Of a DNA stretch of 64,000 nucleotides, positions 12,922 through 30,946 are shown in pieces. The DNA comes from Bacteroidales bacterium. GTDB lineage: Bacteria; Bacteroidota; Bacteroidia; Bacteroidales; UBA932. Made by a program: the position numbers and the translations under genes. Every line of letters starts with the position of its first letter. Position 1 is the stretch's first letter. The stretch covers positions 1-64,000 of the forward strand of contig JAFTDJ010000025.1 of NCBI GenBank assembly GCA_017454265.1, in the 5' to 3' direction. The notes below the pieces were generated by a model. It made no database searches, was not told where the DNA came from, and saw nothing but the letters and a program-made list of their open reading frames with translations.

Positions 12922-12930
12922 CCCCCCCCC
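12922..12930. repeat. Homopolymer tract (9 C on plus, 9 G on coding strand)
   Basis: A pure run of nine C lies 101 bases upstream of the first gene of the pilus operon, between that operon and the sulfatase gene. On the coding strand it is followed by TAGAAT. A similar longer run precedes the second pilus operon. Such tracts slip during replication and can switch transcription. Confidence 0.9.
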
Positions 12931-14608: not shown

Positions 14609-15111
14609 ATCTTTTCCAGTAATTCTTTCGGTATGTACGAAGTAGCCATGGCCGCAATTCCGGAAATGGTGACGACCAGGCGCCTGTCTTTCTTTATTCT
14701 AACAACGTGCCCTTCCGCACCCTTGAACGGACCGTCCAGGACGCGCACCTTGTCGCCCTTATGGTACTTTTCCATATCGTCACCAAGCAGCTCAAGGCCG
14801 GCCTCCTTCGCCGAGGACACAATCTTGAACACTTCCATTTCCTTATCCGGAATCACGGAAGGACGCTTCTTCTCCTTGTCCCAATAGACGTAGAAGCGGT
14901 GCAGGTCGTTGTCGTATTCGAAGCGGCGCATGGCCTCCAGCTTGTCCAGGGTGGTGTGCACGAACACATAGGAGGGCAGCACCTTCTGGGCATAATACTC
15001 CACGCCCTTTTCTTCCAGCAACTCCTTTACCTGCTCGAGACGGTTCCAGTAGGCCCGCAGCGCATACCAATGGAAGTCCTGCTCCCGGGATTTGTCAGTT
15101 ATAATAGACAT
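14605..15111 (-). CDS. UpxY/NusG-family transcription antiterminator
   Basis: 168 residues. The NusG N-terminal (NGN) domain covers about residues 12-100 (DFHWYALRAYWNRLEQVKEL, VLPSYVFVHTT). The KOW segment lies at about 115-145 (YHKGDKVRVLDGPFKGAEGH). This is the UpxY-type NusG paralogue of Bacteroidota, known to allow RNA polymerase to read through long capsule operons. Here no glycosyltransferases are nearby; it is embedded late in a fimbrial operon, overlapping the preceding gene by 17 bases and the sulfatase by 4. It could act on this very operon (16.5 kb long) or in trans on another locus. Confidence 0.88.
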   Translation of the reverse strand: MSIITDKSREQDFHWYALRAYWNRLEQVKELLEEKGVEYYAQKVLPSYVFVHTTLDKLEAMRRFEYDNDLHRFYVYWDKEKKRPSVIPDKEMEVFKIVSSAKEAGLELLGDDMEKYHKGDKVRVLDGPFKGAEGHVVRIKKDRRLVVTISGIAAMATSYIPKELLEKI

Positions 15112-16942
15112 TCCAGTTGTTTGGTATTGAACCTATCATACCTGATGTTCCGCCGTGGAAAGGATAAAGGTAAAGCATTGCCGGGTTCGCATAAAAATTG
15201 CACTTATTGTTATTTTGCACTCCGTCAAGCCATTTATTGAAAACGGTCCACAAATTTATCACAGTCCAGTTTTCCACATTGGAGGAAGCGGGACTTGCGG
15301 AATCACTGTATGAAGTATCAGGCCTCGTTATAACGCACTGGTCGGAAGTGAGCTTCAAACGGCATCGTACATAATTCAGCTTGGAGCACTTTCTGAATAT
15401 GGCAAAATAACAGCCTGGCTGAGGGTCGACGGCCATCAGGTCGGGGCCCCTTTCCAGCACGCTGCATTCTGCAAACATACGCAAATAGCAGCCGTTGGCA
15501 AGCGTAGTCGAGGGCAACAGGTCGGCAGGTACGCCCGTAAGGCTCTTGCAGCCTTCGAACATCTTGCTGTAGCAGGCGAGCGCAAGGTCCGTCCTGGGCA
15601 GGAAGCCACTGGGTATTGCGGTAATTCCGGTTCCGAAGAACATGCTCTCGAAGCACTGGGCGGTAAGGGCGGCGTCGTTATTCAAGGCCAGATTCTCAAG
15701 GCCGGTGATATTCGTGCATCCATAGAACATCTCCATATAGCAGCCCCGGCTCATGGTGGAGGCGGAAAGCCTGAGCTTCTTTTCCGGATGAAGCTTGAGC
15801 CACTTTGCATTATAGAAGGCTCTCTGGAAGGCGTAAGACGCCGTAATCTCAGACTTCGCCTTATACTTGTCGTCACACATGAGGAACATTATGTCGCCAT
15901 AAACATAACTGTTCTTGTCTGCAGAGACGAGCGAAGAGTTGCCGGTAATCTGGTAATTGGTCCCCTTCCCCCTGAAATATATAACGTCTCCGGCATTCGG
16001 CAGCGTTACGGCACTGGAATAATTCGCCCAGTCGTAGCCGTCCAGGCTATACTGTATACCATTGCCTGAGCCCTTGCTGAACGTTACTTTGGTACCGGCA
16101 GAAATCGCTTCTACTGCGAAGTAATCCTGCATGAAAGTAGTACGCTGGAAAGTGTAGTAGTTATTGGCCTTGAGGGTCTGGTCTGCCATCTTGAGAACCA
16201 GGTCTTCCTGCCCTTCCTGGGCAAGAACCACCCGCGCATCCTCCAAGACGATCCCGGATGGAAATGCGGCCACAAATGTAGATTCTACATCCCCGTCAAC
16301 CTCCTCCGCGTTGAAGGAATAGGATCCAATCCGGGTGTTTTCCTGGGTATTAAGTATAGTCGCCGTGAGGGCCGTTCCGGAGGGAGTTATCTGTTCATCG
16401 AACATAAAACTCATCACCATAAACGAGCTCTGCTGGGAAAGGGTATACCGGAGGTCTCCGAATTTTCCGGAACCCGTGAAATGACTGAGCCTGCGAACGG
16501 CTTCCTGCAAAGAATCAGCCTTCTTGTCTGCATAGTCCGTGCCGCCGACCTTACCGTCCGTAATGGTGTGCACCGCGTCATCAGGCCCCACGAGGACCAG
16601 CGAGACGGGAGTGCTCGCAACAGGTGTAAAGTCCTCTGCACAAGTCAGTTCTCCTTCGAAGAGGGCCTCCGACCGACCGATGTCGGCAGCACGGGACAGC
16701 GACAAGAAGCCATACAGCTCGCCGCCTTCACTTTCCATATACACCCTGTCTCCCCTCTCGAAGGAGTACTTCATATCCTCACCGAGAGAGGCCCGTGTAG
16801 TGCTCCCGCCGTCGATGGTTGCGCTGTAATGAATCGTCTTGGTGCGGGGCACGTCAATGGAAATGCCTATCTTCTCCGTGCAGGAGAAGAGCAGGACGAG
16901 CAGAGGAAGGGCCGGAATATATTTGAACAAAGACTTCATCAT
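15095..16942 (-). CDS. Fimbrillin-like lipoprotein with BspA-type repeats
   Basis: 615 residues with lipobox Cys21 (LLFSC). The N-terminal half (about 30-270) looks fimbrillin-like: IHYSATIDGGSTTRASLGED, FERGDRVYMES. A short domain at about 275-320 (TKVTFSKGSGNGIQYSLDGY) follows. From about 385 to 540 come repeats of the form CYxxMFxGCxxLTxxPxxLLPxTTLAxxCY, typical of BspA-like leucine-rich repeats that bind host surfaces. The first of two ATG codons overlaps the upstream stop (ATGA). It is probably a pilus-linked or cell-surface adhesin; the binding partner is unknown. Confidence 0.8.
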   Translation of the reverse strand: MMKSLFKYIPALPLLVLLFSCTEKIGISIDVPRTKTIHYSATIDGGSTTRASLGEDMKYSFERGDRVYMESEGGELYGFLSLSRAADIGRSEALFEGELTCAEDFTPVASTPVSLVLVGPDDAVHTITDGKVGGTDYADKKADSLQEAVRRLSHFTGSGKFGDLRYTLSQQSSFMVMSFMFDEQITPSGTALTATILNTQENTRIGSYSFNAEEVDGDVESTFVAAFPSGIVLEDARVVLAQEGQEDLVLKMADQTLKANNYYTFQRTTFMQDYFAVEAISAGTKVTFSKGSGNGIQYSLDGYDWANYSSAVTLPNAGDVIYFRGKGTNYQITGNSSLVSADKNSYVYGDIMFLMCDDKYKAKSEITASYAFQRAFYNAKWLKLHPEKKLRLSASTMSRGCYMEMFYGCTNITGLENLALNNDAALTAQCFESMFFGTGITAIPSGFLPRTDLALACYSKMFEGCKSLTGVPADLLPSTTLANGCYLRMFAECSVLERGPDLMAVDPQPGCYFAIFRKCSKLNYVRCRLKLTSDQCVITRPDTSYSDSASPASSNVENWTVINLWTVFNKWLDGVQNNNKCNFYANPAMLYLYPFHGGTSGMIGSIPNNWNVYYN

Positions 16943-19900
16943 AAGTTACCTCCGTCGTTAAGTCCGCCGCCCAGGCCTATGTCTCCGCCTCCGGCGTTTC
17001 CGGAATCGTTACGTATTCCATGGAAACCACGAAGGACGATACGTGTAATCACTATATCACGGTTCGACGGAGCGTCCATAACCAGCTTGCCGCCCGTTTC
17101 GCTCCACGGAAGGTTCCACATATACTCGTAGTTGTTGCCCAGGTAGCCATAGTAAATGCTTCCGTCCGGCTCGGGGCTGACGGAACGGGGCCGCTGCGGC
17201 GTAGTGCCGTATACGTAGTAGAACACCTGCGCGTAGTAAAGGTAAACGTCGCTGTTGGAAGACGTGATGTCCGCCTCCAGCTCGTAATGCCCGCCCGCCG
17301 GCAGCACTATGCCGTTGGAACTGTCGTGCTTCTGGACATCCTTGTCGGCAACCAGTTCAAGCGTAAAGAGACCGTTGGGAGCGTTGGATACGGTAATATT
17401 TTTCTGAAACAGCCCTCCGTTGCTCACGAAGGTTGTCCAATCTGCGGAACTGGAAATATCCAGGGAATAGATGGAGCCGAAGAAACGGGGCGCGGAAACG
17501 GTTTCCTCCACGTATCCCGCGCAGGAAATCGTGACGGATACGGCATCGTACCCGGCAGTCGTGGTAAACCATTTCTCGCGGTAATAGTCCTGTGCGGTAC
17601 TGGAGACGTTTCCGGTATCGTCCCAGGGATTTACGGATTTGACGCCGTTGTAAGCCGGCACGGACATCCTGAGTTTCTTGTTCCCCTCAAGATACTTGTA
17701 GCTGTCGGGGTCCGTGTAGTAGCCCACAAGAAGAGGCCTGTCGGCATAGGAAGTGACGTACCCGTACGCAACGTGCGAGAAGCTGTTCCCGGTACCCTGA
17801 TGCTGATTGCCGTTGGGAACAGACATATCCATGATGCTCAGATTCCTGAAACGCCAGGGCTTGATTGTCACAGGCTCGTAACGGCCGTCCGCGGAACGAA
17901 GCCCTACGGACACCTCTCCGTCGTCGGTAGTGGTCTTAAGGGTGAAAGTCATCGCCTGGTCAGAAGGGTCGTAGTAATACTCGCCGGTCTGGGGGTCGGT
18001 CTGGATACCGGAGCCTTCTGCAGGTTCCAGGCCGGTAAGATCCAGATATACCCTGTCGTAAGAATCCCTGGCAGACATCTGCTCCGCAGCCACGGTAACC
18101 TCCCTGCCGGATTCCCGGGGGACGGAAGACGTGAAGCGGGGTTTCCTGAACGATGCGTAATTTGTGAAAGAAGCCTGGCCGGGATAGAAGAACTCATTGG
18201 CCACATAAATCTCGGTCGCACTATCCTCGCAATTGGTCTTGAAATAGCTGGAGAAAGTACGCCAGAGGCTCTCGTCCTCATAATCGAGCCGGGCTTGCAG
18301 ATTATTGTATTCTTCCCACTCCAGGGTGCGCTGGAAATGGAAGGTCTGGTAGTCGCCAACGATGGATTTCTCAGAAATCACCGGCAGGTTGCTGTCATCC
18401 ACTGATGTGTCGGGAGTGAGGGACAGATTTTTGGCCTCTATAATGAAGTACAGTGGGAACATGGACTCCACCAGACCGTCCGGAATTGCGACGTCCACCC
18501 TCTGGCTTTCGCCCCTTACCATCAGTACCCGCTCGCTTTCGCAGCTCACGCGCATCGGCTGGGTAGGCAGCAGGGAAATAACTATGTCGCGATACAGGGG
18601 AGATTCTTCTACGTTGTCGGGGTCCGTCTTGCACAGGATGCGCAAGGTCTGGGTTCGCACAGCAGCCTCACCGGGACTTGCAATGCCGAAAGAAATCGGC
18701 CGCCAGCCATAGTTCTCCGCATCCGAGGTCTCGGTAACAGGATTTCCGATTTCCAGGTCCTTGATGATGCCTCCGTTCTCCGGAATCAACTCGTAGTAAA
18801 CAGATTCAGGCCTCAGGTTCGGCTCCGGGTCGTCTCCGTTGATATCGTCGAAGAACTTTACGTACAGCTGTTCCGACTTTTCTTCTGCGCGTATGAAGGT
18901 CTTGCTCATCCAGTGCTGAATGGCCATACGGCGGGTTCCGTCGGAGATGTCGGGGAGACCGGAAGCGTTGATGTCGGCAGAAACGTCGGCACTTCCCGCA
19001 GCTGCGGCGGCGGCATCGGGGGTATCGTAGCCGCGCGCGGATATCTTGTCTATCTGGATTTCGTATTTGAAGTTGCGCAGCACCGGGTAATACTCGCTTC
19101 CCGCCATAAGGTCCACCTTGTAGTAACACATCAGCCCCTCCGAAGGGACGGTGTCGTCGGCGGGGTTTTTATACAGACCGTAAACAATCACATAGGTGGG
19201 CTCGAGCTTGGAGTTGGGGACAGGCCGCTCATACAGATAAACGGTATGGTCCTCGGAATCTTCAGGGGCGTCGGGGTCGTAACGCTTCACGCCTCCGGTG
19301 CAATTCTCAAAATCGTCCGTGCCGGGAATGTCATGATTGAATTCCACGTCCGAGGGCAAATTTCCCTCGTAATTGTATCCGCTGCCGCGAAGCTGGTCGA
19401 AGCTGAGGTCTTTATAATTGGTAATGAAGCCCTTGTCCCCTCCGTATGGCACCAGTGTGCCGTACTTGGGCATATTTACTACCGCAAAACTGTAGGGGGT
19501 AAAATTAGACTCTCCCGCGGGCTTCGACTTGAGCTCTATCTTGGCCCAGTTCCTGATGAGAGGGATATTGGAGAAGGCCGAAAGAAGCTCATTGCTGGGA
19601 AGATATGGATCTCCGGACTGCCGTTTGGTGTTTATGTCTGGATAAACATAGTCGCCGTCACCGTCCCGGAGAGCGGTAACGTTCGTCAGGGTCACCATCT
19701 GCCAGAAACCGGTTTCCTTTTCGCCGAGCAAAGACGGCAGCACCTCATAATCCCTGCCGAAAGGAATGCTGGAAGGCCCGTTGCCTATGAAATGCACCCT
19801 GCGGGAAGAGTTTGACAAGGCAATCGAGAAGCTGAAGGTATAGAGGGGGACGGTCTTGTGCAACACGGTCTCGCCGTCGGCGGCAAGGTAAGAATAATCG

Positions 19901-20163
19901 TATGTGCCGCTGTCGCTTACCAGCTCTGCTTCCTGGTACTCTTTCAGGTAACCTGAGCCGCCGAAAATTGCCACGTGCATGGTTTCCAGCGCGGGAGACT
20001 CGCCAAGGGCCTTTGTGGCCGGGAACTCTCCGGCAACGCTGAACGTGACCTGCACGCGCCCTTCCGGTTCGCCGGACGGCGCCTCCACCGGCTCAAGATC
20101 CCTGTCCGGAGAGCAGGACAGGGCCGCCAGCAAAGCAAATCCTATGAGCATCCACTTTCTCAT
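16939..20163 (-). CDS. Very large DUF4906-like surface lipoprotein
   Basis: 1074 residues. The ATG at 20163 forms ATGA with the upstream stop; a longer start at 20181 is less likely. Lipobox Cys17 (AALSC) follows MRKWMLIGFAL. The N-terminal part resembles fimbrial DUF4906 proteins: VQVTFSVAGEFPATKALGES, METMHVAIFGGSGYLKEYQ-like segment about residues 60-80. No enzyme motif is seen in the long remainder, which is rich in beta-strand-like stretches and tyrosines, as expected for an elongated adhesin. It lies between another large lipoprotein and the BspA-type protein. The tip or adhesin role is an inference from size, lipidation and operon. Confidence 0.65.
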   Translation of the reverse strand: MRKWMLIGFALLAALSCSPDRDLEPVEAPSGEPEGRVQVTFSVAGEFPATKALGESPALETMHVAIFGGSGYLKEYQEAELVSDSGTYDYSYLAADGETVLHKTVPLYTFSFSIALSNSSRRVHFIGNGPSSIPFGRDYEVLPSLLGEKETGFWQMVTLTNVTALRDGDGDYVYPDINTKRQSGDPYLPSNELLSAFSNIPLIRNWAKIELKSKPAGESNFTPYSFAVVNMPKYGTLVPYGGDKGFITNYKDLSFDQLRGSGYNYEGNLPSDVEFNHDIPGTDDFENCTGGVKRYDPDAPEDSEDHTVYLYERPVPNSKLEPTYVIVYGLYKNPADDTVPSEGLMCYYKVDLMAGSEYYPVLRNFKYEIQIDKISARGYDTPDAAAAAAGSADVSADINASGLPDISDGTRRMAIQHWMSKTFIRAEEKSEQLYVKFFDDINGDDPEPNLRPESVYYELIPENGGIIKDLEIGNPVTETSDAENYGWRPISFGIASPGEAAVRTQTLRILCKTDPDNVEESPLYRDIVISLLPTQPMRVSCESERVLMVRGESQRVDVAIPDGLVESMFPLYFIIEAKNLSLTPDTSVDDSNLPVISEKSIVGDYQTFHFQRTLEWEEYNNLQARLDYEDESLWRTFSSYFKTNCEDSATEIYVANEFFYPGQASFTNYASFRKPRFTSSVPRESGREVTVAAEQMSARDSYDRVYLDLTGLEPAEGSGIQTDPQTGEYYYDPSDQAMTFTLKTTTDDGEVSVGLRSADGRYEPVTIKPWRFRNLSIMDMSVPNGNQHQGTGNSFSHVAYGYVTSYADRPLLVGYYTDPDSYKYLEGNKKLRMSVPAYNGVKSVNPWDDTGNVSSTAQDYYREKWFTTTAGYDAVSVTISCAGYVEETVSAPRFFGSIYSLDISSSADWTTFVSNGGLFQKNITVSNAPNGLFTLELVADKDVQKHDSSNGIVLPAGGHYELEADITSSNSDVYLYYAQVFYYVYGTTPQRPRSVSPEPDGSIYYGYLGNNYEYMWNLPWSETGGKLVMDAPSNRDIVITRIVLRGFHGIRNDSGNAGGGDIGLGGGLNDGGNL

Positions 20164-22640
20164 CTTTGTGCATCCCCCCATGTAAACTGTGAAGGTACAC
20201 CGTTCCCGTCGAGCACACGCTCGTCGCCCCAGTACCAGCTGTCGTAAACACAGCGGAGCATGGCCACGGTAACGTACGGCACCCTGGTCACAGTCTTGTT
20301 TGCCTTATTCACATTCACGGCACCGTTGGCAGACCAGTAATTGCCGCTGAACTGCCACTCGAACACTTCGTGCGCGGAGAGGTTGGATATGAAGCGGACC
20401 TCCCCCTCGGTAGGCAGGCGCCAGCGCCCTGCAGGGAATCCGTTCTCCTGAAAAGAAGCGCAACGCATACGCGCCTGCTCCAGAGGCGTACCCCCGTACT
20501 CGCTTCCGCTCAGCTTCGTAGAAATACGATATGCCGGAGCGAGCATATTCACCGTCCGGTCTGAGGCTTCCGTGGGATAATACCACTGCAGAGAACGCTC
20601 TCCCCCCTCGATGGCCGGAGCGGTGGCGAAGTATTCGTCCATACCGGTACGCAGATTGTCCACCGTGCTCTGACGGGGGTCTCCGAGCACGAATTCGGAG
20701 TCCTCGGGCAGCACGGAAACGTCTATCCTGTACATGTCCGTACCGCCGCTGGAGTAGTGTACAACCCTCCAGATATGGTCCAGCCGCCATGCTTCTTTTT
20801 CGTCCGCAGGAACAAGCTTAAGGTCCGCATCATACCTGGTACGTGTGTACTGGTCGTCGTTCACGAACACATAGCCCCAGTGATCAGGGGTCGTATCGCC
20901 GGTCACGCCGGTCCAGGTGTCTGGATTAGGAGTCGCATGCAGATAGAGCCCCGGGTTCTGGACTATCTTAACGTGCTTGTCGTACTTCTCCATCCATGCT
21001 TCGCGGCTGTCGGCATGACCTACGTCGAAAACTATGGTATATGTAGAATAATCAAAGAGATCCGTGGTGTAATCATTGTTGAGCGTGTGGGAATAGCGTA
21101 TGACTCCCCCTAAATCCTGAAGCCAGTCTTTACCCTCATCGGCGGTGCCTGCGTTAAGCGCGATGCGCTGCTCCTCGGAAAACTCGAGATAGTAGCTTCC
21201 CTCGGGATATATGTCGTCGTAAGTATCATCGTCTGAATAACTTACCCGCTTCACATCGCCTTTGTATTTACTGTTGTAGCCCACGGAAGGACTCTCGCCA
21301 TAATAAGGGCGGGTAACGTGCACATTCTTGATGGCGATGGGGTTGCTGGTGGTATAACGGACGTCTATGCCCTGCTGGTTATAGAGATAGTACTCCTCCT
21401 TTTCTACGGAAAGGTAGCGGGCATTTCCTATATTGGCATGCTTCACCACCACGTTCTTGTCTTGCCAATACACTATGAACAATTCGGCGTTGAGGGCTAC
21501 GGCAGCCTCGTCGGTATCAGCGCCCAGCACGCCCACGCCCACATCGTAGTGATACCAGTTGTTGCGGACAAAGCTGTTGGCAAATTCACCTCCGCGACGG
21601 TCTTGGGGAATGAGAATCTTGTAGTAGAACTCTTTCTGTACGGCGGATATGCCGTTGCCGGCCTTGCGGTCCCAGGGAAGTACGAGCTTAAGGTAAGGCT
21701 CCCGGGAGCCTTCCTCGGCAGAACCTGTCGTCCAATGATAGGGATAGGTGTACATAGGGAAAGTCTGGAAATACTCGCCCTCTTTGTCGAAGTACAGCTC
21801 CCCTGCGCTGTTGTAGAAATACAGGGGGTAGTCGCCGTACGTGAGGTAATCGGCGTCGGTCGGGGCATCCGTACCTTCGGAGCCGGCGGGAGCGCCGCCG
21901 AGCTGCACCTTGCGCACTCCGTCAACAAGGTATATGCGCATTTCCTGGGGACGCGGCGTCCATACCTCCATTATAGGGTTGCCCTCGCCGTCGAACCGGC
22001 CCGAATCCATTTCCACCTGCTCCTCCATTTTGATGCCCACGGTAATCTTGCTGGCATAACGGAGAAGGCCCACAAGACCCTGTGAAACCACTTTCTGGCT
22101 GCGGCCGGAAAGGGTAATCGTAGCGGAACCGCTCATCATAAACTGGTCCTGCCTGTGGTTGGTGTAGCTTACGTTCACGAACTCGGTAGAGACCACCTGA
22201 CGCTTGATATTGTCCAGCGACGTATCCTCCAGGCCGTCCAGAAGATCTTTGGGGCCGTTTGCAATGGCGAATACGCTCGCCTCCGTAGTCTCCGACTGCA
22301 CTGGGAAAATCTGGTAGTTCACCTGATTGGTGGTAAGTTCTATACGGAAGACGTCGTTTTCCCGCTTGCCGGATTCCTTGCGCACGTGATAGCTCGCATT
22401 CTCGAAAGTTGCGCCGCCGGGATAGAAGTAGAAATCCACCCACGAAATTACGTTTTCGTGGTAGCTGTTGTCTCCTGCCTGCACGCCGTCGCTGCCGGCC
22501 TTGGTGGGGTCGGTCGGCTCCATGCAGGCCACGCCCAACTCTATCACCGGGCCGTCCCATACCGTCTCCGGCACTTCCTTGCCACAAGAAGAAAGCACCA
22601 GGCAGCATATCAGCAGGCAGTATGAAAGGCGTTTTATCAC
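20160..22640 (-). CDS. Large fimbrial-operon lipoprotein
   Basis: 826 residues if translation starts at GTG 22640, which overlaps the previous stop as GTGA and directly begins the signal peptide MIKRLSYCLLICCLVLSSC (lipobox Cys19). An ATG at 22670 is possible but lies inside the upstream gene. FYYKILIPQDRRGGEFANSF and NNWYHYDVGVGVLGAD resemble shaft-entry segments seen in Bacteroidales fimbrial lipoproteins. The C-terminus has GRWRLPTEGEVRFISNLS and NYWSANGAVNV, similar to FISUMP/C-lectin-type modules. Likely a surface or tip protein of the same pilus; ligand unknown. Confidence 0.65.
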   Translation of the reverse strand: MIKRLSYCLLICCLVLSSCGKEVPETVWDGPVIELGVACMEPTDPTKAGSDGVQAGDNSYHENVISWVDFYFYPGGATFENASYHVRKESGKRENDVFRIELTTNQVNYQIFPVQSETTEASVFAIANGPKDLLDGLEDTSLDNIKRQVVSTEFVNVSYTNHRQDQFMMSGSATITLSGRSQKVVSQGLVGLLRYASKITVGIKMEEQVEMDSGRFDGEGNPIMEVWTPRPQEMRIYLVDGVRKVQLGGAPAGSEGTDAPTDADYLTYGDYPLYFYNSAGELYFDKEGEYFQTFPMYTYPYHWTTGSAEEGSREPYLKLVLPWDRKAGNGISAVQKEFYYKILIPQDRRGGEFANSFVRNNWYHYDVGVGVLGADTDEAAVALNAELFIVYWQDKNVVVKHANIGNARYLSVEKEEYYLYNQQGIDVRYTTSNPIAIKNVHVTRPYYGESPSVGYNSKYKGDVKRVSYSDDDTYDDIYPEGSYYLEFSEEQRIALNAGTADEGKDWLQDLGGVIRYSHTLNNDYTTDLFDYSTYTIVFDVGHADSREAWMEKYDKHVKIVQNPGLYLHATPNPDTWTGVTGDTTPDHWGYVFVNDDQYTRTRYDADLKLVPADEKEAWRLDHIWRVVHYSSGGTDMYRIDVSVLPEDSEFVLGDPRQSTVDNLRTGMDEYFATAPAIEGGERSLQWYYPTEASDRTVNMLAPAYRISTKLSGSEYGGTPLEQARMRCASFQENGFPAGRWRLPTEGEVRFISNLSAHEVFEWQFSGNYWSANGAVNVNKANKTVTRVPYVTVAMLRCVYDSWYWGDERVLDGNGVPSQFTWGDAQR

Positions 22641-24175
22641 AAGTAGAAATGGTATATCTGGTCTATGCACTCAGACGCACCGGAAATCTCGCGGTCGTCG
22701 GGGGTGTAGGCCTTGAAGGAGAGGGTTATGGTCTTGTCTTTGGTATCACCGGTATAGGAACGGTTGCGGTCTATGCTTATATCTATGCGTCCGCCCAGAT
22801 GTGAAGGGTCTATGGTAACCTCCGCAGGAGTAACCGAGAAGGCCGCGAGATCCGACGCCGAGCCTTCGGGAATAATTTCCAGCTTTCCTCCCTGTGGAGT
22901 CGTCACATACAGGAAGCCTTTCGCCGGCCTCTGGGTATCCAGGAACACGTTGAACTCGTTCTTTCCCAGAGGGACGATGGTGGCCGAGTTGTCCTCGACT
23001 GTAAACTTCTGGGTAACCTGGAGGGAGGATGTGTCGAACTCGATGGTATATTTGTTCATATCCCAGGGCAGCACGCTCACTGCAAGCTGAAGCGTACGGT
23101 TGCTTATGAAGTAGCCGTACAGCGTCCAGGTGTGGTTGCGGGCAAAATCTCCCGGAGCCGCCATGGAAAACGGCATTGTCTTGTTCTCCGTAACGTCGGG
23201 GTCTCCGTCAAGTCCCTTGGTGGTGATGGAATAATACACCGTACCGGTAAGCGCCTTGTCGCTCTCCCGCAGATAGTATGTGCCGCAATCGGTAAGGCTT
23301 CCGTTCAATATGCCGTAGTTTATCAGCCTCTCATAGGTGGGGCCGTCCTGGCCTGCATAGGAATACAGTTCCGGGGAATCGCTGGACGCCAGCTCGGCGC
23401 CCTCCGGCCACGGGGTCTCCATCGGGGCGGAAATATAATCGTCCGGAACCACATGACAGGCGTCCGGAGAAAAGACATACTCGTTCTGCGGAATCTGGTC
23501 TCCGTCCAGGACCACCTTCTGTATGGCAAATACCTCTTCCGTATTACCTTCCGTGTACATCTGGCTGAAGATGTAGCGAAGCTTGGACACAGCATGTCCC
23601 ACGGAAACGGTAGATACCGTGAGCGAAGGCTCCTCGCCGCTGATTTCACGGTTCAGTCCCACTCCGCTCATGGGAAGTCCCTTGGCAGGCACGGATGTAA
23701 CCGGGCTCACGGTGCTGAAAAGGGCGTCACCGCCAAAAACCGCAGCGCTCAGCTCGTCCCAGAGAGCCTCGTCCCGGTTGGCGCTCTGAGCAAGCGTGGA
23801 GCCAATGGAACCGCCGTTTACCAGCACGAACACATCTACCCTGGGGCGGGTGAGCAGGAACTGGCGGGTCACGGGCAAGGCGTACTTGCGCACACCGCCT
23901 CCGGAAGGAAGGTTGGCCTCGTCGTCGGTGATAAGAGGATCCGTTATGAGTTCCTTGGTCTCGTGGTTGAAAACCCAGATAGACAGGTCGTAGATGCCGT
24001 TTTCCGCTTCCGAAGCAGGAACCTCTCCCTCAATCGCCCTGGTGGCGTCTGATGCCTGCGGGAACTCGATGGCAAGATTCAGTTTGGGGCAGCCGTCCGT
24101 ATCAGGCTTCTCGTAGATACAGGAAGCCGTCAGCATAAGCGCCGCAATAAGCCATATGATTCTCTTGCCCACCAT
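22637..24175 (-). CDS. Fimbrillin-like lipoprotein with FimB/Mfa-type N-terminus
   Basis: 512 residues with lipobox Cys19 (MLTASC) and then IYEKPDTDGCPKLNLAIEF, the Cys-pair motif also found at 5017-6600 and common in FimB/Mfa2-type proteins. IYDLSIWVFNHETKELI and RPRVDVFVLVNGG fit the Mfa2-like first domain. A second domain starts near residue 200 (VSVGHAVSKLRYIFSQMY), and the C-terminal 170 residues form strand-rich repeats (QKFTVEDNSATIVPLGKNEF). It is probably a minor subunit linking the shaft to the larger lipoproteins that follow. Start and stop overlaps on both sides support one transcript. Confidence 0.65.
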   Translation of the reverse strand: MVGKRIIWLIAALMLTASCIYEKPDTDGCPKLNLAIEFPQASDATRAIEGEVPASEAENGIYDLSIWVFNHETKELITDPLITDDEANLPSGGGVRKYALPVTRQFLLTRPRVDVFVLVNGGSIGSTLAQSANRDEALWDELSAAVFGGDALFSTVSPVTSVPAKGLPMSGVGLNREISGEEPSLTVSTVSVGHAVSKLRYIFSQMYTEGNTEEVFAIQKVVLDGDQIPQNEYVFSPDACHVVPDDYISAPMETPWPEGAELASSDSPELYSYAGQDGPTYERLINYGILNGSLTDCGTYYLRESDKALTGTVYYSITTKGLDGDPDVTENKTMPFSMAAPGDFARNHTWTLYGYFISNRTLQLAVSVLPWDMNKYTIEFDTSSLQVTQKFTVEDNSATIVPLGKNEFNVFLDTQRPAKGFLYVTTPQGGKLEIIPEGSASDLAAFSVTPAEVTIDPSHLGGRIDISIDRNRSYTGDTKDKTITLSFKAYTPDDREISGASECIDQIYHFYL

Positions 24176-24176
24176 T

Positions 24177-26045
24177 CTATTCCAGCATTATAGTTGTAGG
24201 AGAAGACAGAAGCCAGTTCATCTGAGCCTGAACGCCGACTACAAGCTGCGGAAGGCCCAGGTCGGGAACGGCGTTATAGGCGCCGTCGAGCGAATTGATT
24301 ACGCAGGTAACAGTCGTTACATGGTCCTTGACCACAACGCTGTCGAAAGCACGGGGAGGCTCCGGCAAAGTGAGTTTTCCCACCATATAGAACTTGCGGC
24401 CCGGAAGAATACGGCCGTCGGCACCGTAAAAGGTTTTTCCGCTGTCGTTCCTGAATTCAAGAGTAAAATAAACCTCCCTGTCTGCAGGCGTCTGGAACGA
24501 AAGTGAACGTATTGGAGCTGATGTGTCTGCAGTCAGGTAAACACCCGGAATCTGGTTGTCGTACAGATAGTACTCACCGTCTTCTGAAAAGACCGGAGTA
24601 AAGTCGTAGGTCTGGGCATACTGCCCGCCAAGGATGATTCCCGTAACCGGCAGGTTTTCCCCGATGGCGTCCACAGTAGTCTCGGGCAGACCGTCGTTGT
24701 CTTGCAGTTTGGCCTTGCCGGCCTTTATGGTGGCTCTTATCAAGCCGACGGAGAACTGGACTGGTTCCACCAGGGCCACAGCTTTTGTCTTGCTCGACAC
24801 CGTGGTGCCCTGCGTGAAGCGGGAAAGGATGTCGGACCAGTTTACCGAACTGCTTCCGATGAAACTCTGAAGCACATCCTCGTCTTCAGAGGTACGTATG
24901 CCTGAATTTATATAATAGCACAAGGAAGGAGGGAAACAGTAGCGGTTCATGGGAGCCATGCCTTCAACGCCGTTCATCAGCGGAACCACAAAGCCGGCGG
25001 GAGTCCAGCGAAGGACGGCACAGCCTGACGGAAGTCCTAAATTCTCAGGGTAAGACCGCACGGCCTGATCTGCAAAGTACACTTCAAGGGCGTCGTCTTC
25101 TATTTCCAGCAAGCCGTCGGCCTTGAGCGCGGCAAAGCGTCCAAGTACATCTTCCTTGAGCTGGTTGTACAAATCTTTGTAAAGGAGCAGGGTACCGTCG
25201 GCCTTACGGGCTTCGTATGCCACCCCGGCCTCAACTACCTCGTACTCGTTTACATTGTGACTCTCGTAATTCCGGAGCATGCCGTACAAACTGGACAAAA
25301 GGGATTCCACAAGGGGTGCGGAACCGGGAATCATGGCGCCGTCGTTGGTAATCTGCCTGTAGGCCTCACGCAGGTTGCTGTCGCCCACGCTTTCGTTCCA
25401 GTTCAGGCTCACCGTAGTGGACAGCCCGGCGCCGTAGAACGCTTCCACCTCCGTGGGCGCTCCAAGCATTATACCGTTCAGCACGCCGGCAATCTTCTGC
25501 GCCGGTTCCGGCACGTCGTCACCTTTCATCATGACATCCGGGGCGAATCCCAATTCGGCAGCAGAGAGCTTGGTAACTGTCTGGAAGCCTCCGCTCCTCA
25601 ATACGGAGCCGTTTATCTGTTTGAGCACCGTAGCGTCAATCTGGGCGCCGTCTGCATTTACCGCCCGCCCGTACAGCAGCACATCGGAGCATTTCTTGGG
25701 AATGTAAACACCGGTGGAAGCATAGAGGACGGAGCCGCTGTCGTCGCTGCCTGCGCCGGAGACTATGCCCGGCAGACGGATAATTCCGGTGAGGGACGGA
25801 TCAGAAGAAACAGCCTCCGAAGAAGAGAAGGGGACGAGACAAAGGTCCGTTATACCGCGGAACACAGGCTCAACATCCAGCTCGGTGAGCAGATCCACGT
25901 CCGCCTTGGTGGCGGCTCCGGAGCCCACAGACAGCGACAGCCTCACAGACTGTATTCCGTCTCCGGCGTCGTCGGTGTCCTGCCATACCGAGCAGGACGC
26001 CAGGAGCGCCAGAAGCAAAACCGTATGATACGCCCTGTACTTCAT
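24177..26045 (-). CDS. Fimbrillin-like lipoprotein, paralogue of the 27092 gene
   Basis: 622 residues from the ATG at 26045 (overlapping the previous TGA by one base); a GTG at 26048 is an alternative. Lipobox Cys18 (LLASC). The C-terminal part shares a module with the 27092-29527 protein: VTGIILGGQ, EVYFTLEFRNDSGKTFYG, RKFYMVGKL, then a VTTVTCVINSLDGAYNAVPD segment and QLVVGVQAQMNW. NAVIP-type pilin endings are absent; the last residues are TTIMLE. The two paralogues flank the Mfa2/FimB-like gene, so one may form the shaft and the other a cap or junction. The exact role is not known. Confidence 0.7.
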   Translation of the reverse strand: MKYRAYHTVLLLALLASCSVWQDTDDAGDGIQSVRLSLSVGSGAATKADVDLLTELDVEPVFRGITDLCLVPFSSSEAVSSDPSLTGIIRLPGIVSGAGSDDSGSVLYASTGVYIPKKCSDVLLYGRAVNADGAQIDATVLKQINGSVLRSGGFQTVTKLSAAELGFAPDVMMKGDDVPEPAQKIAGVLNGIMLGAPTEVEAFYGAGLSTTVSLNWNESVGDSNLREAYRQITNDGAMIPGSAPLVESLLSSLYGMLRNYESHNVNEYEVVEAGVAYEARKADGTLLLYKDLYNQLKEDVLGRFAALKADGLLEIEDDALEVYFADQAVRSYPENLGLPSGCAVLRWTPAGFVVPLMNGVEGMAPMNRYCFPPSLCYYINSGIRTSEDEDVLQSFIGSSSVNWSDILSRFTQGTTVSSKTKAVALVEPVQFSVGLIRATIKAGKAKLQDNDGLPETTVDAIGENLPVTGIILGGQYAQTYDFTPVFSEDGEYYLYDNQIPGVYLTADTSAPIRSLSFQTPADREVYFTLEFRNDSGKTFYGADGRILPGRKFYMVGKLTLPEPPRAFDSVVVKDHVTTVTCVINSLDGAYNAVPDLGLPQLVVGVQAQMNWLLSSPTTIMLE

Positions 26046-27085
26046 CACATTACAATTTCGTGTTCCATGCCGGGGGTCCAGTCGAGGGTGACGTTCACCA
26101 CAACGCTGTGGTCCTCGGTATCTATGGAGCCGTCGTCGAAGACATGCACCTTGATAATCCTGAGCTGCCCCGGGGTGATGGGCTTGCGCACGCCGAGCTC
26201 GTTCCGGGTCACCGCTCCGTCATGGGTGGTGGCATAAACAAGGAACCACCACATTGCCTTGTCGGGGCTCTCCTCCACGTCGGGGTCGGGGGTCTGGATT
26301 ATGAGCCTGGTCTGCGGTTCCGGCACGTGTGAAGGGAAATTCACACAGGCGTAGCACACCTCCGTCCCCGTGCCTTCCTCCGGCACCATGTGCGTAGTGC
26401 GGAATACGGGGGAGGAGTTGAAGCTGTAAGTGCTGTCTGCCATGTCGAAGTCGGTGGCAAAGCCGGTGGCATACACCCGGAGGTCTTTAATGCGGCTGCC
26501 CAGCGTGTCGAGCACCAGGGCCTCGGCGCAGTTGGCCATATACAGGCTCACGTCGAACTGCTGGTCCTCTCCTTCCTTGATATGCATTGGGAGACGTGCC
26601 GTAAAAATGCCGGTGGTGTGGGGGTCCAGAGTGTCGGCCACCGCCTGGTGAAGCCGGGCGGAATGGCAAAACCCGTCGTCCTCTATGCGGATGGAGGAAT
26701 CTACGGTGATGTTAGCCACCGCCAGATGCATGTAGTCGCGCACAGGGATGTAGAGGGTATAGCTGGACTCCCTGGCATCCATGATATGGTATTCGTGGTG
26801 CAGGCGCACCGAGTCGGCGGCGACGTCGTAGAACGAGAGGTCCACGTCGTGGGCGAAATCTGTAAAGACGTCTTTGAGGTAGGCCTGGAGGGCCGTGGAC
26901 ACGGAGATGTCTGCGGCAAGGCTGAGCTCGGTCTGCAGCTGGGTACTCATGTTGGTAACCAGCTGCAGGCTGTAGTTCAGGGTGTGGTCCTTTCCGCAGT
27001 CGCTCATGTCCTCGTCCACCAGTGCGCATCCGGCCAGGGTGGCGGACACGAACAGGAGGCCTGCCAGTGCAAAGCGCCCAGACAT
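26045..27085 (-). CDS. FimB/Mfa2-family fimbrial anchor protein
   Basis: 346-residue lipoprotein with Cys20 (ATLAGC) followed by ALVDEDMSDCGKDHTLNYSL, matching the first residues of FimB/Mfa2 family proteins. The body has VDLSFYDVAADSVRLHHEYH, YTLYIPVRDYMHLAVANI and ITPGQLRIIKVHVFDDGS, the usual two beta-sandwich layout. It follows the first fimbrillin of the second operon (6-base gap) and precedes its paralogue. In P. gingivalis such proteins anchor the fimbria in the outer membrane. This is the second Mfa2-like gene in the window and supports the existence of two separate pilus systems. Confidence 0.78.
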   Translation of the reverse strand: MSGRFALAGLLFVSATLAGCALVDEDMSDCGKDHTLNYSLQLVTNMSTQLQTELSLAADISVSTALQAYLKDVFTDFAHDVDLSFYDVAADSVRLHHEYHIMDARESSYTLYIPVRDYMHLAVANITVDSSIRIEDDGFCHSARLHQAVADTLDPHTTGIFTARLPMHIKEGEDQQFDVSLYMANCAEALVLDTLGSRIKDLRVYATGFATDFDMADSTYSFNSSPVFRTTHMVPEEGTGTEVCYACVNFPSHVPEPQTRLIIQTPDPDVEESPDKAMWWFLVYATTHDGAVTRNELGVRKPITPGQLRIIKVHVFDDGSIDTEDHSVVVNVTLDWTPGMEHEIVM

Positions 27086-27091
27086 TTCGCT

Positions 27092-29527
27092 CTATTCGGT
27101 GCCTATGTTCACGTTGAACTCAAGTCCGGACTTCCAGGACATGTCTATCACAAGGCCCAGGGTAATCTGGCTGGAACGGAGGTCAGGCATGGTCACATAA
27201 GCATGCTTCAAGGCGTCCTTGCCCAGAATAATGTCGGCGGTTGTCACGTAATTCTGCATGAACACGCGCGGAGCGTCAACGGTGCTTCCGTCCTGGGTCT
27301 TGTAAGGAGGATAATTGTAATTGCTCATGCCTGCAAGGTTGAATCCGTCGGGCTTTCTGGCCGTCTTCATGTCAAGCTTGCCGATAAGATAGAAAGTACC
27401 TCCGTTACGGACGAGGTTCAGCTCTCCCCAGAAGTCCTTGCCGGTATTGTTGAGGATTTCCACGGCCACATACACGTCAGACTGCTTATCCGCAGCAAGG
27501 GTGGCGTCGTAGTTGTCCCAGGCAAACGTATAGATAGGGTCGTTCTGACGGCCGATTATGTAATCGTTGTCACGAATAACCTTGTCGTATATCATCTTGT
27601 CGAACTTGTTGTTGTTGAACAGGATGGCTCCGCCCTGGTCGTCGGTGTAGAGCTGCTGTTCTTCGTCCCATTTCCAGACAACGTTTATGTCGTCTGCTGC
27701 GCGGGTGTAGTCCCAGCACACCGTATTAGGCTGGCCGCCGATGATGATACCTGTAACTTCAAAGCCTCCGCTGATGGCTCGGGTATTAACTTCAATTTCA
27801 TTGTCCGCCTCACCGTCATGGATGTAGGAATTGTTGTCGTACAGCTTGGTGACGCCGGTAGCATAGCGCACATTGGTCTTAAGAAGGGCGGTTCCGTAAT
27901 TGATATGGTTCTTCATGGCAACGCTGCGGGTGGTGGAAACAACCTTTCCTTCCTCCCAATCGTTCCATTGGCTTTCACTATCCCAGGCGCTTACAGAAGC
28001 CGGGAACGTCTCCACGGCATTGTTGGAAACCCGGATAGGGGAATTGCCATAATACATAAGCTCGGGCGGATAGCGGTAATTAGCGATGGGGAAAGTCGCT
28101 TCGCCCATTCCGTATGCCGGAATATCCGTAACGTAGGAAAATCTGTCTACGCTTTTTTTAGCGGCATCAATGTCATTCACTACAGTACATCCAAGGCAGG
28201 CGGCACCATAAGGAAGGCCGATGTTCACCGGGAAACCGGGATTGTCTCCTATGGCGAAGAAACTTTCGTCAAACAAATCGATCTTACTTTTGTTTGCAGC
28301 CCAATCCGACGGGCCTCCGGCCAGTTCGGCTACGGTCAGGAACCTGGTCAGATCTACGGAAGTGACATCATAAACATCTCCGTTTTTCTTGGGCATGAAG
28401 TACAGGACGCCGCTCTGATACAGGAACATCTGGTCCATCCTGCGAATGATTTCCTGCGCCATAAGCTTGGCAACATGCTCCTCCCAGCCAGTAGGGTCGG
28501 TATTGGCTATCCTGAGCAGGACGGTGTAAAGGTCGTCCATGGTACGGATGAGCGATGCCGCGGAGCCGGCACGAAGTTCCTTGTACTGGTCTCTTGATAC
28601 AATAGTGGTGAGCACGGAATATGCTTCTCCGAGGCTCTCGCCGAGCGGAGACAGATCCATGTCGGGCTCAGGAATCCCGGAAGGGTCGAGGCCTTTCTTG
28701 TAAGCATAATCGTACATCTGTCCGAACTGCTTCCAGGATATCTGTCCGCGATGGAAGGTGTAGGTTGTGGCACGGTCTACACTACGCGTAGCTCCGTTTA
28801 CGACACCCGCGGTATCGGTGGGAGTGTTGGCATCTATAGGCCACCAAAAGCGGTAGCTCCTGTCCACGCTGCCTGTAGGATTATTCCAGAATGACGTTTC
28901 CTTTACCAAGCCTGCGGACACAAGGTTGTTGAGGCAGCGGGTAAAAAGGAAGGCGGCACCATCGAACGCATCCTGTGAAGTAAGGCGGCTCACCAGTGAG
29001 AACTGGATGGTGCTGATGTCGTTTACATCCCCTGTGGTAGTCACGGCTCCCTGAAGGTCGTTGGAGGCGTCTTTCTTGGCTTTGCCGTACAGCACCATGG
29101 CGTTGGTGTTGAGCGGGAGGGCCAGCGAAACGGAACGGGAGGAAGAACTGGAAGTTACGTCACCGGCGTTCATCAGGTTGCCCAGGTCGAAGTCACGGGT
29201 AGCGGGGAATTTTACCACATTGCCTTCGGCGTCACGCTCGGAGGGCATATAGTAAAAGTTCTTTTCCCCAAGGTTATAGGCAAGAAGGTGCACGGCTTCC
29301 ATTCCGAGGAATGTAGGGTTGTCTCCTGCCTGCGCAAACTCGGGCGTAGTCTTCGTGGACGCGTCGTTTGTAGCGGGGGTGGAGAGGTTGAGCACAAAGT
29401 CAGCCTTCACCGTATTGGCATCGGCATCGTAGGTGGGATTCACGGTAGCCACCGGTTCCCTTTTGCAGGAGCTCAGGGCAAGTACCGCCATGGCGCAATA
29501 AACAAAAGCACTGAGATGTTTTCTCAT
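27092..29527 (-). CDS. Large fimbrillin-like lipoprotein, first gene of second pilus operon
   Basis: 811 residues with lipobox Cys21 (LALSSC). N-terminal fimbrillin features: VKADFVLNLSTPATNDASTK, GMEAVHLLAYNLGEKNFYYM. The C-terminal module (VTGIIIGGQ, DVYVAVEILNNTGKDFWG, GTFYLIGKLDM, VFMQNYVTTADIILGKDALK, MPDLRSSQITLGLVIDMSW) recurs in the 24177-26045 protein. As the first gene behind the promoter and G tract it would be the most strongly expressed, as is usual for a shaft pilin. It is larger than P. gingivalis FimA or Mfa1. The pilin role is inferred from position and motifs. Confidence 0.75.
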   Translation of the reverse strand: MRKHLSAFVYCAMAVLALSSCKREPVATVNPTYDADANTVKADFVLNLSTPATNDASTKTTPEFAQAGDNPTFLGMEAVHLLAYNLGEKNFYYMPSERDAEGNVVKFPATRDFDLGNLMNAGDVTSSSSSRSVSLALPLNTNAMVLYGKAKKDASNDLQGAVTTTGDVNDISTIQFSLVSRLTSQDAFDGAAFLFTRCLNNLVSAGLVKETSFWNNPTGSVDRSYRFWWPIDANTPTDTAGVVNGATRSVDRATTYTFHRGQISWKQFGQMYDYAYKKGLDPSGIPEPDMDLSPLGESLGEAYSVLTTIVSRDQYKELRAGSAASLIRTMDDLYTVLLRIANTDPTGWEEHVAKLMAQEIIRRMDQMFLYQSGVLYFMPKKNGDVYDVTSVDLTRFLTVAELAGGPSDWAANKSKIDLFDESFFAIGDNPGFPVNIGLPYGAACLGCTVVNDIDAAKKSVDRFSYVTDIPAYGMGEATFPIANYRYPPELMYYGNSPIRVSNNAVETFPASVSAWDSESQWNDWEEGKVVSTTRSVAMKNHINYGTALLKTNVRYATGVTKLYDNNSYIHDGEADNEIEVNTRAISGGFEVTGIIIGGQPNTVCWDYTRAADDINVVWKWDEEQQLYTDDQGGAILFNNNKFDKMIYDKVIRDNDYIIGRQNDPIYTFAWDNYDATLAADKQSDVYVAVEILNNTGKDFWGELNLVRNGGTFYLIGKLDMKTARKPDGFNLAGMSNYNYPPYKTQDGSTVDAPRVFMQNYVTTADIILGKDALKHAYVTMPDLRSSQITLGLVIDMSWKSGLEFNVNIGTE

Positions 29528-29577
29528 AATCCAAAAACTTATAATTACAATTTTTATAATTTTCTGTGTTCAAAGAG

Positions 29578-29585: not shown

Positions 29586-29610
29586 AGCATTTTTTTAAAT
29601 AAGTATACTA

Positions 29611-29622
29611 CCCCCCCCCCCC
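29611..29622. repeat. Homopolymer tract (12 C on plus, 12 G on coding strand)
   Basis: A pure run of twelve C on the plus strand, read as G upstream of the second pilus operon. On the coding strand it is followed by TAGTAT, similar to TAGAAT after the tract at 12922-12930. Runs of this length are unstable in replication, and read-to-read length variation is expected. Confidence 0.92.
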
Positions 29623-29652: not shown

Positions 29653-30861
29653 CTATTTGCTGAGCCTTGCGCGAAACTCCGCCGTCGCGGTAAAGAAAAC
29701 GTCTCCGCTGGAGTTGAGGGCGGTCTCCACTGAGTCCTGTACGACTCCGATTATGAAGCCGATAGCCACTGCCTGCATGGCCAGGTCGTTGCCTATGCCG
29801 AGGAAAGAACAGGCCATGGGAATGAGCAGGAGCGAGCCGCCTGCAACTCCGGAGGCGCCGCAGGCGCCGAGGGCGGCCACAACGCACAGCAGAAGGGCGG
29901 TGAAGAAGCTCACTTCTATGCCCAGGGTATGGGCCATGGCCATAGTCATGACGGTTATGGTGACGGCGCCGCCGTTCATATTGATGGTTGCGCCCAAGGG
30001 TATGCTCACGGAATAGAAATCCTCATCCAGTCCCAATTCTTCACAAAGCTCGAGGTTTATGGGGATATTTGCGGCGGAAGAGCGGGTGAAGAATGCGTTA
30101 AGTCCGCTCTTTTTCAGGCAGGTAAAGAGCAGCGGATAAGGGTTCCGCTTCGTTGCCAGGAAGGAAATGAGCGGGTTGCACACAAAGGTGTTGAAGAGCA
30201 TGCAGCCGACCAGGAGCAGCAGCAGTTTGCCGTACACCGTAAATATCTCCAGGCCGCTTTCAGATACCGCCGAGAACACGAGTCCGAGGATACCGAAGGG
30301 GGCGAACTGGATAATCCATTTCACGCATAGCGAGGCCACCTCGGCAAGGTCGGACACCACCCTGACGGTCCCCTCTCCGGCAAGCAGCTTGAGCCCTATG
30401 CCGAAGAGCACGGCCCAGAACAATATGCCTATGTAATTGGCGCCTGCCACCGCCTGCACCGGGTTCATCACCATATTGGTGAGAAGGTTGGTAAACACGT
30501 CGGTGAGGGCGCCCGGGGCGCTTCCCTGCGCTCCCGCCTGCAAATCGAGGCGCACCGGGAACAGGAAACTGCCTATCACGGCTACGAGTGCGGCCATAAG
30601 GGTGGTTACAATATAGAGGAATATGACTGTCCGGAAGCGCGGTCCGAGCCCTCCGCCGGCCTTGGCTATGGAAGAGGCCACAAGCAGCGCAACGAGCACG
30701 GGCGCGATGGCCTTGAGCGCGCTCACGAATATTTTTCCGAGTATGCCGACGCCCGTCCATTGCGGCGCCAGCAAACCCAGCACGGCGCCAATCAGCAGGC
30801 CGCCGAGTATTCGGAGCACGAGGCTGCTGCCGGTCCATGCGTTAAGTATCTTGGAAGGCAT
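29653..30861 (-). CDS. sstT: Serine/threonine:Na+ symporter (DAACS family)
   Basis: 402-residue inner-membrane transporter for Ser/Thr, of the dicarboxylate/amino acid:cation symporter family. The SstT-like core is FTRSSAANIPINLELCEELG followed by SVSIPLGATINMNGGAVTIT, the re-entrant hairpin and TM7 region. About eight hydrophobic segments are visible, and the length fits SstT (about 410). The ATG at 30861 (MPSKILNAW) is chosen because the longer reading to 30903 runs into a tRNA gene. That ATG lies only 4 bases after the tRNA-Leu end, so the two are probably co-transcribed and the mature message has almost no leader. Confidence 0.93.
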   Translation of the reverse strand: MPSKILNAWTGSSLVLRILGGLLIGAVLGLLAPQWTGVGILGKIFVSALKAIAPVLVALLVASSIAKAGGGLGPRFRTVIFLYIVTTLMAALVAVIGSFLFPVRLDLQAGAQGSAPGALTDVFTNLLTNMVMNPVQAVAGANYIGILFWAVLFGIGLKLLAGEGTVRVVSDLAEVASLCVKWIIQFAPFGILGLVFSAVSESGLEIFTVYGKLLLLLVGCMLFNTFVCNPLISFLATKRNPYPLLFTCLKKSGLNAFFTRSSAANIPINLELCEELGLDEDFYSVSIPLGATINMNGGAVTITVMTMAMAHTLGIEVSFFTALLLCVVAALGACGASGVAGGSLLLIPMACSFLGIGNDLAMQAVAIGFIIGVVQDSVETALNSSGDVFFTATAEFRARLSK

Positions 30862-30865
30862 ATCG

Positions 30866-30946
30866 TGCGGGCGGTGGGACTCGAACCCACACGCACAGGG
30901 CACAAGATCCTAAGTCTTGCTTGTCTACCAATTTCAACACGCCCGC
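30866..30946 (-). tRNA. tRNA-Leu, anticodon UAG
   Basis: Minus strand. The acceptor stem GCGGGCG pairs with CGCCCGC, the anticodon stem CAAGA/TCTTG encloses the loop CTTAGGA (anticodon TAG, reads CUA), and the T arm is GTGGG-TTCGAGT-CCCAC. The variable region of about 12 bases is the long type expected for Leu. The discriminator is A and CCA is not encoded. The sstT ATG follows 4 bases later. Confidence 0.95.

Follow-up and report, generated by a model that had tools for sequence, protein, structure and literature searches.

A 12-guanine tract as a candidate slippage-prone element in the predicted promoter of a type V pilus operon of a Bacteroidales bacterium

A run of twelve G residues lies in the predicted promoter of an operon that, judged by its gene content, is a type V pilus operon, in a 64,000-nucleotide stretch of DNA (the window) from a Bacteroidales bacterium. 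We interpret this run as a slippage-prone, or contingency, element of the promoter, a reading to which we give a probability of about 0.58. In the proposed mechanism, replication slippage would add G residues to the tract or remove them. The promoter has a -7 box and lacks a TTG at -33, and the tract abuts the place where its -33 region would be. A change in tract length would therefore alter the distance, and with it the helical phase, between the -7 box and a contact made by RNA polymerase or an activator upstream of the tract. The altered spacing would then change the transcription of the pilus unit, from 29527 to at least 15095, in the manner of the Bordetella fim or Treponema tpr promoters, and the affected unit might extend through upxY and the sulfatase gene. 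What we infer is that the tract slips in this strain, where transcription starts, that a contact is made upstream and that tract length affects expression. The switching reading is plausible, and a scan of the genus lends it indirect support beyond that offered by a single site.

The tract and its predicted promoter

A preliminary description of this DNA had proposed a 12-G tract, a -7 box 25 bases past it, the lack of a -33 TTG and a pilus operon behind the tract, and the analysis bears out each of these. The run reads C12 on the plus strand and is thus G12 on the minus strand, that of the pilus genes, at exactly the position described (Table 1). The gap between the tract and the box TACCTTTG is exactly 25 bases, and no TTG occurs 18-23 bp upstream of this box. 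The tract is situated between the stop codon of sstT and the first pilus-type ATG, at 29527, 83 bp downstream of the tract, which is the position predicted for the promoter; behind it, FimD is recognized above the cut-off and the Mfa1-family matches are weak.

Promoters of Bacteroidota are described with the consensus TAnnTTTG at -7 and TTTG at -33 (PMC7366714), the same -7 consensus being given in PMC12632263. The missing TTG is not unusual: the window contains 27 matches to TANNTTTG, against 22 expected, and 21 of these 27 likewise have no TTG at that distance, so that a single box is weak evidence. A 22-bp piece of this promoter containing the box, TTAAAAAAATGCTTACCTTTGC (A7-TGCT-TACCTTTG-C), is found identically in another genome (G544:C10:15386-15407, L264), where it has no G tract and lies 28 bp upstream of a 537-aa lipoprotein-type ORF. 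This recurrence suggests that the -7 box of the window may serve as a usable core promoter.

Table 1. Features of the tract region and of the two pilus operons in the window
Feature	Position	Strand	Remark
G12 homopolymer tract	29611..29622	-	proposed slippage-prone contingency tract
AT-rich 25-bp stretch from tract to -7 box, without -33 TTG	29586..29610	-	
-7 box TACCTTTG of the proposed pilus promoter	29585-29578	-	consensus TAnnTTTG
Proposed start region and untranslated leader, up to first ATG	29528..29577	-	putative start site
sstT serine/threonine transporter, upstream of the tract	29653..30903	-	NF010151, above cut-off
811-aa lipoprotein (by reading), first gene of pilus operon II	27092..29527	-	
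346-aa lipoprotein	26045..27085	-	anchor-like, from its position
623-aa lipoprotein	24177..26048	-	weak similarity to the 811-aa protein (E 5.9e-9)
512-aa lipoprotein, fourth gene	22637..24175	-	weak Mfa1-family match (E 2.5e-5, below cut-off)
FimD fimbrial tip adhesin, 836 aa, fifth gene	20160..22670	-	NF052322, 263.9 bits (cut-off 170), E 3.7e-78
1080-aa lipoprotein, sixth gene	16939..20181	-	weak Mfa1-family match (E 1.3e-5, below cut-off)
615-aa lipoprotein, last pilus-type gene	15095..16942	-	overlaps upxY
UpxY-family antiterminator	14605..15111	-	NF033644, 121.7 bits (cut-off 100)
Sulfatase-like gene (named by reading)	13031..14608	-	overlaps upxY; possibly last gene of the unit
Second tract, G9	12922..12930	-	79 bp upstream of the operon I -7 box; role doubtful
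-7 box TATATTTG of pilus operon I	12842-12835	-	

The pilus operons

Seven genes, separated by gaps of at most 6 bp or overlapping, follow the tract from 29527 to 15095. Among the components expected of a type V pilus, the tip protein FimD is the one identified above its cut-off, the stalk is represented by two Mfa1 matches below theirs, and the anchor is assigned from position alone. The 811-aa product of the first gene has no match in Pfam or NCBIfam, and no solved structural relative of it was found.

Pilus operon I encodes a redoxin lipoprotein, DUF3575, DUF3868, Mfa1 and Mfa2 proteins, among others. The idea that the two pilus operons each carry such a tract holds to the extent that a G9 run is present near operon I, but its 79-bp distance from the box makes the case weak; this distance falls outside the 6-36 bp that we scanned in the genus, and the run was not counted as a promoter tract.

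Long G tracts before -7 boxes in the genus

The pattern G9-H-N5-35-TANNTTTG, which describes G tracts of at least nine residues lying 6-36 bp before a -7 box, was searched for in 400 genomes of the genus. It gave 68 matches (67 tracts, 61 genomes), compared with 18 for the reversed pattern (binomial p 5e-8). C-tracts in the same position yielded 28 matches (26 tracts) against 15 in the control, and given these loci the orientation of the tract may matter less than its distance. Shorter G runs, of six or more, likewise precede boxes about twice as often as in the control (95 versus 46 in 61 genomes); the enrichments of long and short runs differ at p 0.046 only, for genome sets that are not the same. 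An order-wide scan of 295 genomes, G000 (the assembly that holds the window) and G122 included, gave 52 matches versus 20, with several per genome in some families.

The tracts fall into two arrangements. Of the 25 tracts at most 14 bp from the box, 18 have a TTG at 18-23 bp from that box, with TTTG at 21-22 bp in 12, which places those tracts inside the -33/-7 core spacer. The peak at 21-22 bp is partly a matter of ascertainment, because the requirement for nine G residues favours long spacers; despite this, the result suggests that boxes behind close tracts probably belong to real promoters. Among the 42 tracts lying 17 bp or more from the box, 15 have a TTG at 18-23 bp, mostly at 19-20 bp. 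The window tract is of this second, far kind, without a TTG, and its arrangement is nearest to that of the Bordetella fim promoters.

Several candidate accessory signals were considered. Counting words upstream of 66 non-redundant tracts returned mostly A/T-rich ones, with TCCGGA and CCGGAA in six each, and no convincing conserved activator site. The sequence GGGGCGA, seen near the window tract, the operon I tract and one further tract (L092), occurs within 70 bp of 2 of the 67 tracts and 12 times in the window, and we ascribe it to chance. An extended -7 element, with TG 3-4 nucleotides before the box as in the window, is found at 5 of the 27 far tracts lacking a TTG and at 3 of the 15 having one, that is, with no difference. 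A search for the relatives of one family conserved behind a tract (query L067) retrieved it in 4 of 151 genomes, which does not suffice for a series of tract lengths.

The first genes behind the tracts were compared with Pfam at 52 of the 67 loci, the 15 others having short or cut frames or being near-duplicates. The tracts often stand in front of genes for pili, capsules and other surface structures. In the tally of the 25 commonest of 61 families, DUF3575 accounts for 15 of the 52, followed by OmpA (5), CarbopepD_reg (4), Poly_export (3), NusG (3) and Polysacc_synt_2 (2). Single housekeeping families also occur among the first genes, and two loci (L094, L115) are housekeeping by reading. DUF3575 genes are here the first or an internal gene of pilus operons, and 35 copies were found in 13 genomes of the genus; assuming 1900 genes per genome, their share of the first genes is far above background. 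The enrichment statistic is nevertheless overstated, because the 15 include several mutual orthologues, and, more generally, some tract loci are orthologous and the first-gene counts not all independent. A count of lipobox or hydrophobic starts among first genes (45 of 60) has no background and was set aside.

Two loci illustrate the association with pilus genes. One (G470) has G10, the same 25-bp spacing as the window and the box TATATTTG, followed by DUF3575, DUF3868 and Mfa1 genes (NF038041, 143.7 bits, cut-off 130); at the other (G304), G9 lies 21 bp from the box and heads a DUF3575-DUF5119 pair and three Mfa_like_1 genes. Ten of the loci behind the 28 C-tract matches were inspected: one (L152) has its tract before a DUF3575-like gene (by reading), and others have theirs before lipoprotein-type genes. 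Conversely, among 30 stretches fetched around DUF3575 genes, only three contain any G or C run of at least seven: operon I of the window (L157), L167 and L184. The last (G007:C35) carries two G9 tracts about 180 bp apart (1285, 1470), one upstream of the -7 box, the other close to where a DUF3575 match starts.

Rarity of the run and history of the junction

The most serious alternative is that the G12 is a long run produced by chance in an AT-rich junction, which may well slip, with no effect on transcription. The rarity of such a run argues against this. G12 is unique in the 1,940,733-base assembly, where G tracts of nine or more number seven (one of 12, one of 11, one of 10 and four of 9). 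Within the window, G/C runs of length 4, 5 and 6 number 270, 50 and 8; there are none of 7 or 8, then one of 9 and one of 12. Extrapolating this roughly five-fold decay per base, about 3e-4 runs of at least 12 would be expected per 64 kb. A control counting G8 words in shuffled sequences, which preserves the GG dinucleotides of the tract, was not significant (7 matches versus 4.0 +/- 2.6, and 18 of 100 shuffles had as many). The link seen throughout the genus between long tracts, -7 boxes and surface genes also speaks against chance. Tract lengths in the genus (52 of 9, 11 of 10, two of 12 and one each of 13 and 14, out of 67), on the other hand, become about five times scarcer with each added base; ordinary runs behave likewise, which favours chance.

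The relatives of the operon are likewise on the side of chance. Of 101 genomes, 12, one of them G000, have matches to the 811-aa protein, as do six public loci, partly from the same genomes, whose titles name rumen, yak and reindeer sources. Lipoprotein-type genes similar to those of the window follow the 811-aa relative in five of the six public loci (L138-L142). A DUF3575-like gene (by reading) directly precedes it in L137-L139 and in one genome of the genus (G537, L257), and a shorter one lies about 730 bp before it in L140. This head gene is absent from the window, where the tract promoter occupies its place. No G/C run of eight or more precedes the head gene in the related operons L137-L140, L257 and L260, and L137 has a C6 about 100 bp before it; one set of seven related loci has no run of at least seven, and L016, L017 and L019 none of at least eight. 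Conservation of the tract was therefore rejected, as it was not found in the relatives examined.

The junction itself may be recent. A 701-bp query covering it had matches in 81 of 369 genomes of the genus, and none outside G000 spans it: the matches are to part of sstT, to short pieces of the pilus gene and to the 22 bp in G544. In another genome (G389, L240), sstT overlaps upxY, with nothing between them, and the sulfatase gene comes next; identities with the window are 75% for sstT, 62% for upxY and 94% for the sulfatase (first 334 residues). Relative to this genome, 14.5 kb of pilus operon with its promoter separates sstT from upxY in the window, which may reflect a gain in the window or a loss in G389. 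Taking both sides together, we regard a run due to chance as unlikely, and as the best placed of the alternatives to the contingency reading.

Other explanations of the tract

The tract could also be a fixed structural element of the promoter, a G-run of one length that replaces the -33 element or lies upstream of it and does not switch. In its favour, G9-10 stands 18-19 bp from the box in some other families of the order, often after TTAAC repeats and before TAA, and in the genus the tract is followed by TA in 37 of 67 cases, against 16% expected. The window tract, however, is 12 long, stands at another distance and has no TTAAC repeat, and related promoters vary in tract length (G9 in L080 and G10 in L081; G10 in L071 and G12 in L119), which makes a fixed element improbable here.

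Action at the RNA level seems more improbable still. Transcripts reading through from sstT, or starting upstream, would fold ACCCUUUCGCCCC against the G-run and so end or shield the message. In the predicted fold, the tract indeed pairs with the preceding C-rich sequence (z -2.09; 4 of 200 shuffles were as stable), but no U-run follows the hairpin, and among 30 tract promoters inspected by eye no common C-rich partner appeared. The tract as terminator of sstT was rejected, since no terminator was found at the site. Finally, homopolymer lengths are error-prone in assemblies, and 12 is the value given by an assembly of 70 contigs that is 75.65% complete; an artefact is nonetheless a very improbable explanation, as a run a few bases shorter would still be long for this genome.

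Related systems and implications

Slippage-prone homopolymers in promoters are documented in other bacteria. The C-stretches in the promoters of fim2, fim3 and fimX of Bordetella pertussis differ in length among strains and influence transcription; in an earlier model, they do so by altering how far the activator region stands from the -10 box (PMC1891110). The likeness to the window lies in a homopolymer within the promoter of fimbrial genes. There, however, a C-stretch lies beside a conserved fim box, whereas the window has a G tract and a Bacteroidota -33/-7 core. Poly-G tracts also occur in the surface-protein promoters of Treponema pallidum (tprE/G/J, tprL and tp0126); those of tprL, 7-11 long, vary in vivo, a reporter carrying 8 residues gave more signal than one carrying 10, and a CRP homologue binds the tprE/G/J promoters (PMC7864442). 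These cases were established by fragment analysis and reporters, while the window case is read from sequence.

The same source describes tracts that act on the core promoter of Neisseria meningitidis: in porA, the spacer is set by a poly-G lying between -35 and -10, and in opc a poly-C covers the -35 (PMC7864442). The tp0126 tract, between -35 and -10, resembles the close tracts of the present genus. With about eight residues as the minimum, the G12 of the window, which stands in a predicted promoter, counts as a promoter-region homopolymer of a surface-structure gene. It differs from porA, tp0126 and opc in its position beyond the -33/-7 spacer, at 25 bp from the box and with no TTG at 18-23 bp.

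Bacteroides also phase-vary their surface structures by invertible promoters, which is the point in common with the switching proposed here; that variation relies on invertase-driven inversion between inverted repeats and not on homopolymer length (PMC12632263). As far as the available part of this review of Bacteroidales goes, surface phase variation proceeds via DNA inversion, and neither 'slipped' nor 'homopolymer' is used. No description of promoter homopolymers in Bacteroidales was recognized in a limited literature search of titles and the starts of abstracts. This kind of mechanism is thus known in other bacteria, and its recurrent use in the present genus has perhaps been little noticed.

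We put forward, tentatively and with somewhat less confidence than for the window tract, a broader proposal: this rumen-type genus might widely use homopolymer slippage, alongside DNA inversion or instead of it, for pili, capsules and other surface operons. The tracts would lie within the -33/-7 spacer (at least nine long with spacers of 21-22), lie at or above the -33 region, or interrupt lipoprotein frames. If this is true, cells may vary the amount of pilus through tract length, histograms of tract length drawn from metagenome reads that already exist could reveal pilus and capsule switching in uncultured species of the rumen and gut, and surveys limited to invertible segments would miss it.

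Other tracts

The three longest G tracts of G000 (12, 11 and 10) are all at lipoprotein-type genes (by reading). The G11 (C3:36960-36970; L007 1501-1511) lies in a short reading frame before a lipoprotein-type ORF, which is cut by the end of the locus and has no Pfam or NCBIfam match. The G10 (C28:70718-70727; L011 1501-1510) is within a 427-codon lipoprotein-type frame; a stop occurs just past the tract, a second frame of 368 codons continues, and a DUF3575 match begins at C28:72379. Both frames are interrupted at the assembled length. The G11 may be a translational contingency tract, and it is plausible that G000 has more than one slippery surface locus, by a different arrangement, with G11 and G10 inside reading frames. 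At C37:2416-2424 (L148), the coding strand has a C9 followed 16 bp later by TAGCTTTG and, further downstream, by a lipoprotein-type ORF at least 438 codons long.

The sequence GnTAG[A/T]AT follows three G000 tracts, and a scan of the family gave 15 matches in 8 of 199 genomes, versus 1 in the control. It was rejected as one shared element: at C3 it is within the reading frame, and the other instances look coding. In the genomes of another genus (g54) it is apparently part of the poly-C reading frame on the other strand. The tracts of these genomes (G178, G132 and G190; L049-L051, L055, L056, L058 and L059), 9-17 long and C runs on the opposite strand, apparently belong to a short, conserved frame that follows a box resembling TACCTTTG, some of them near a sufS-like gene. 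By reading, they look like contingency tracts in a leader peptide.

Four further genomes (G812, G084, G717 and G720; L217-L230, L234-L235) have G9-10 before -7 boxes, many of these tracts with TTAAC repeats about 10-11 bp apart upstream and TAA after; in G812 there are eight, before mostly secreted-type proteins (by reading). In G006, the motif GGGGGGAG(A/T)AGTCCAAAAA is present upstream of -7 boxes in five copies (C4, C6, C8, C20 and C23).
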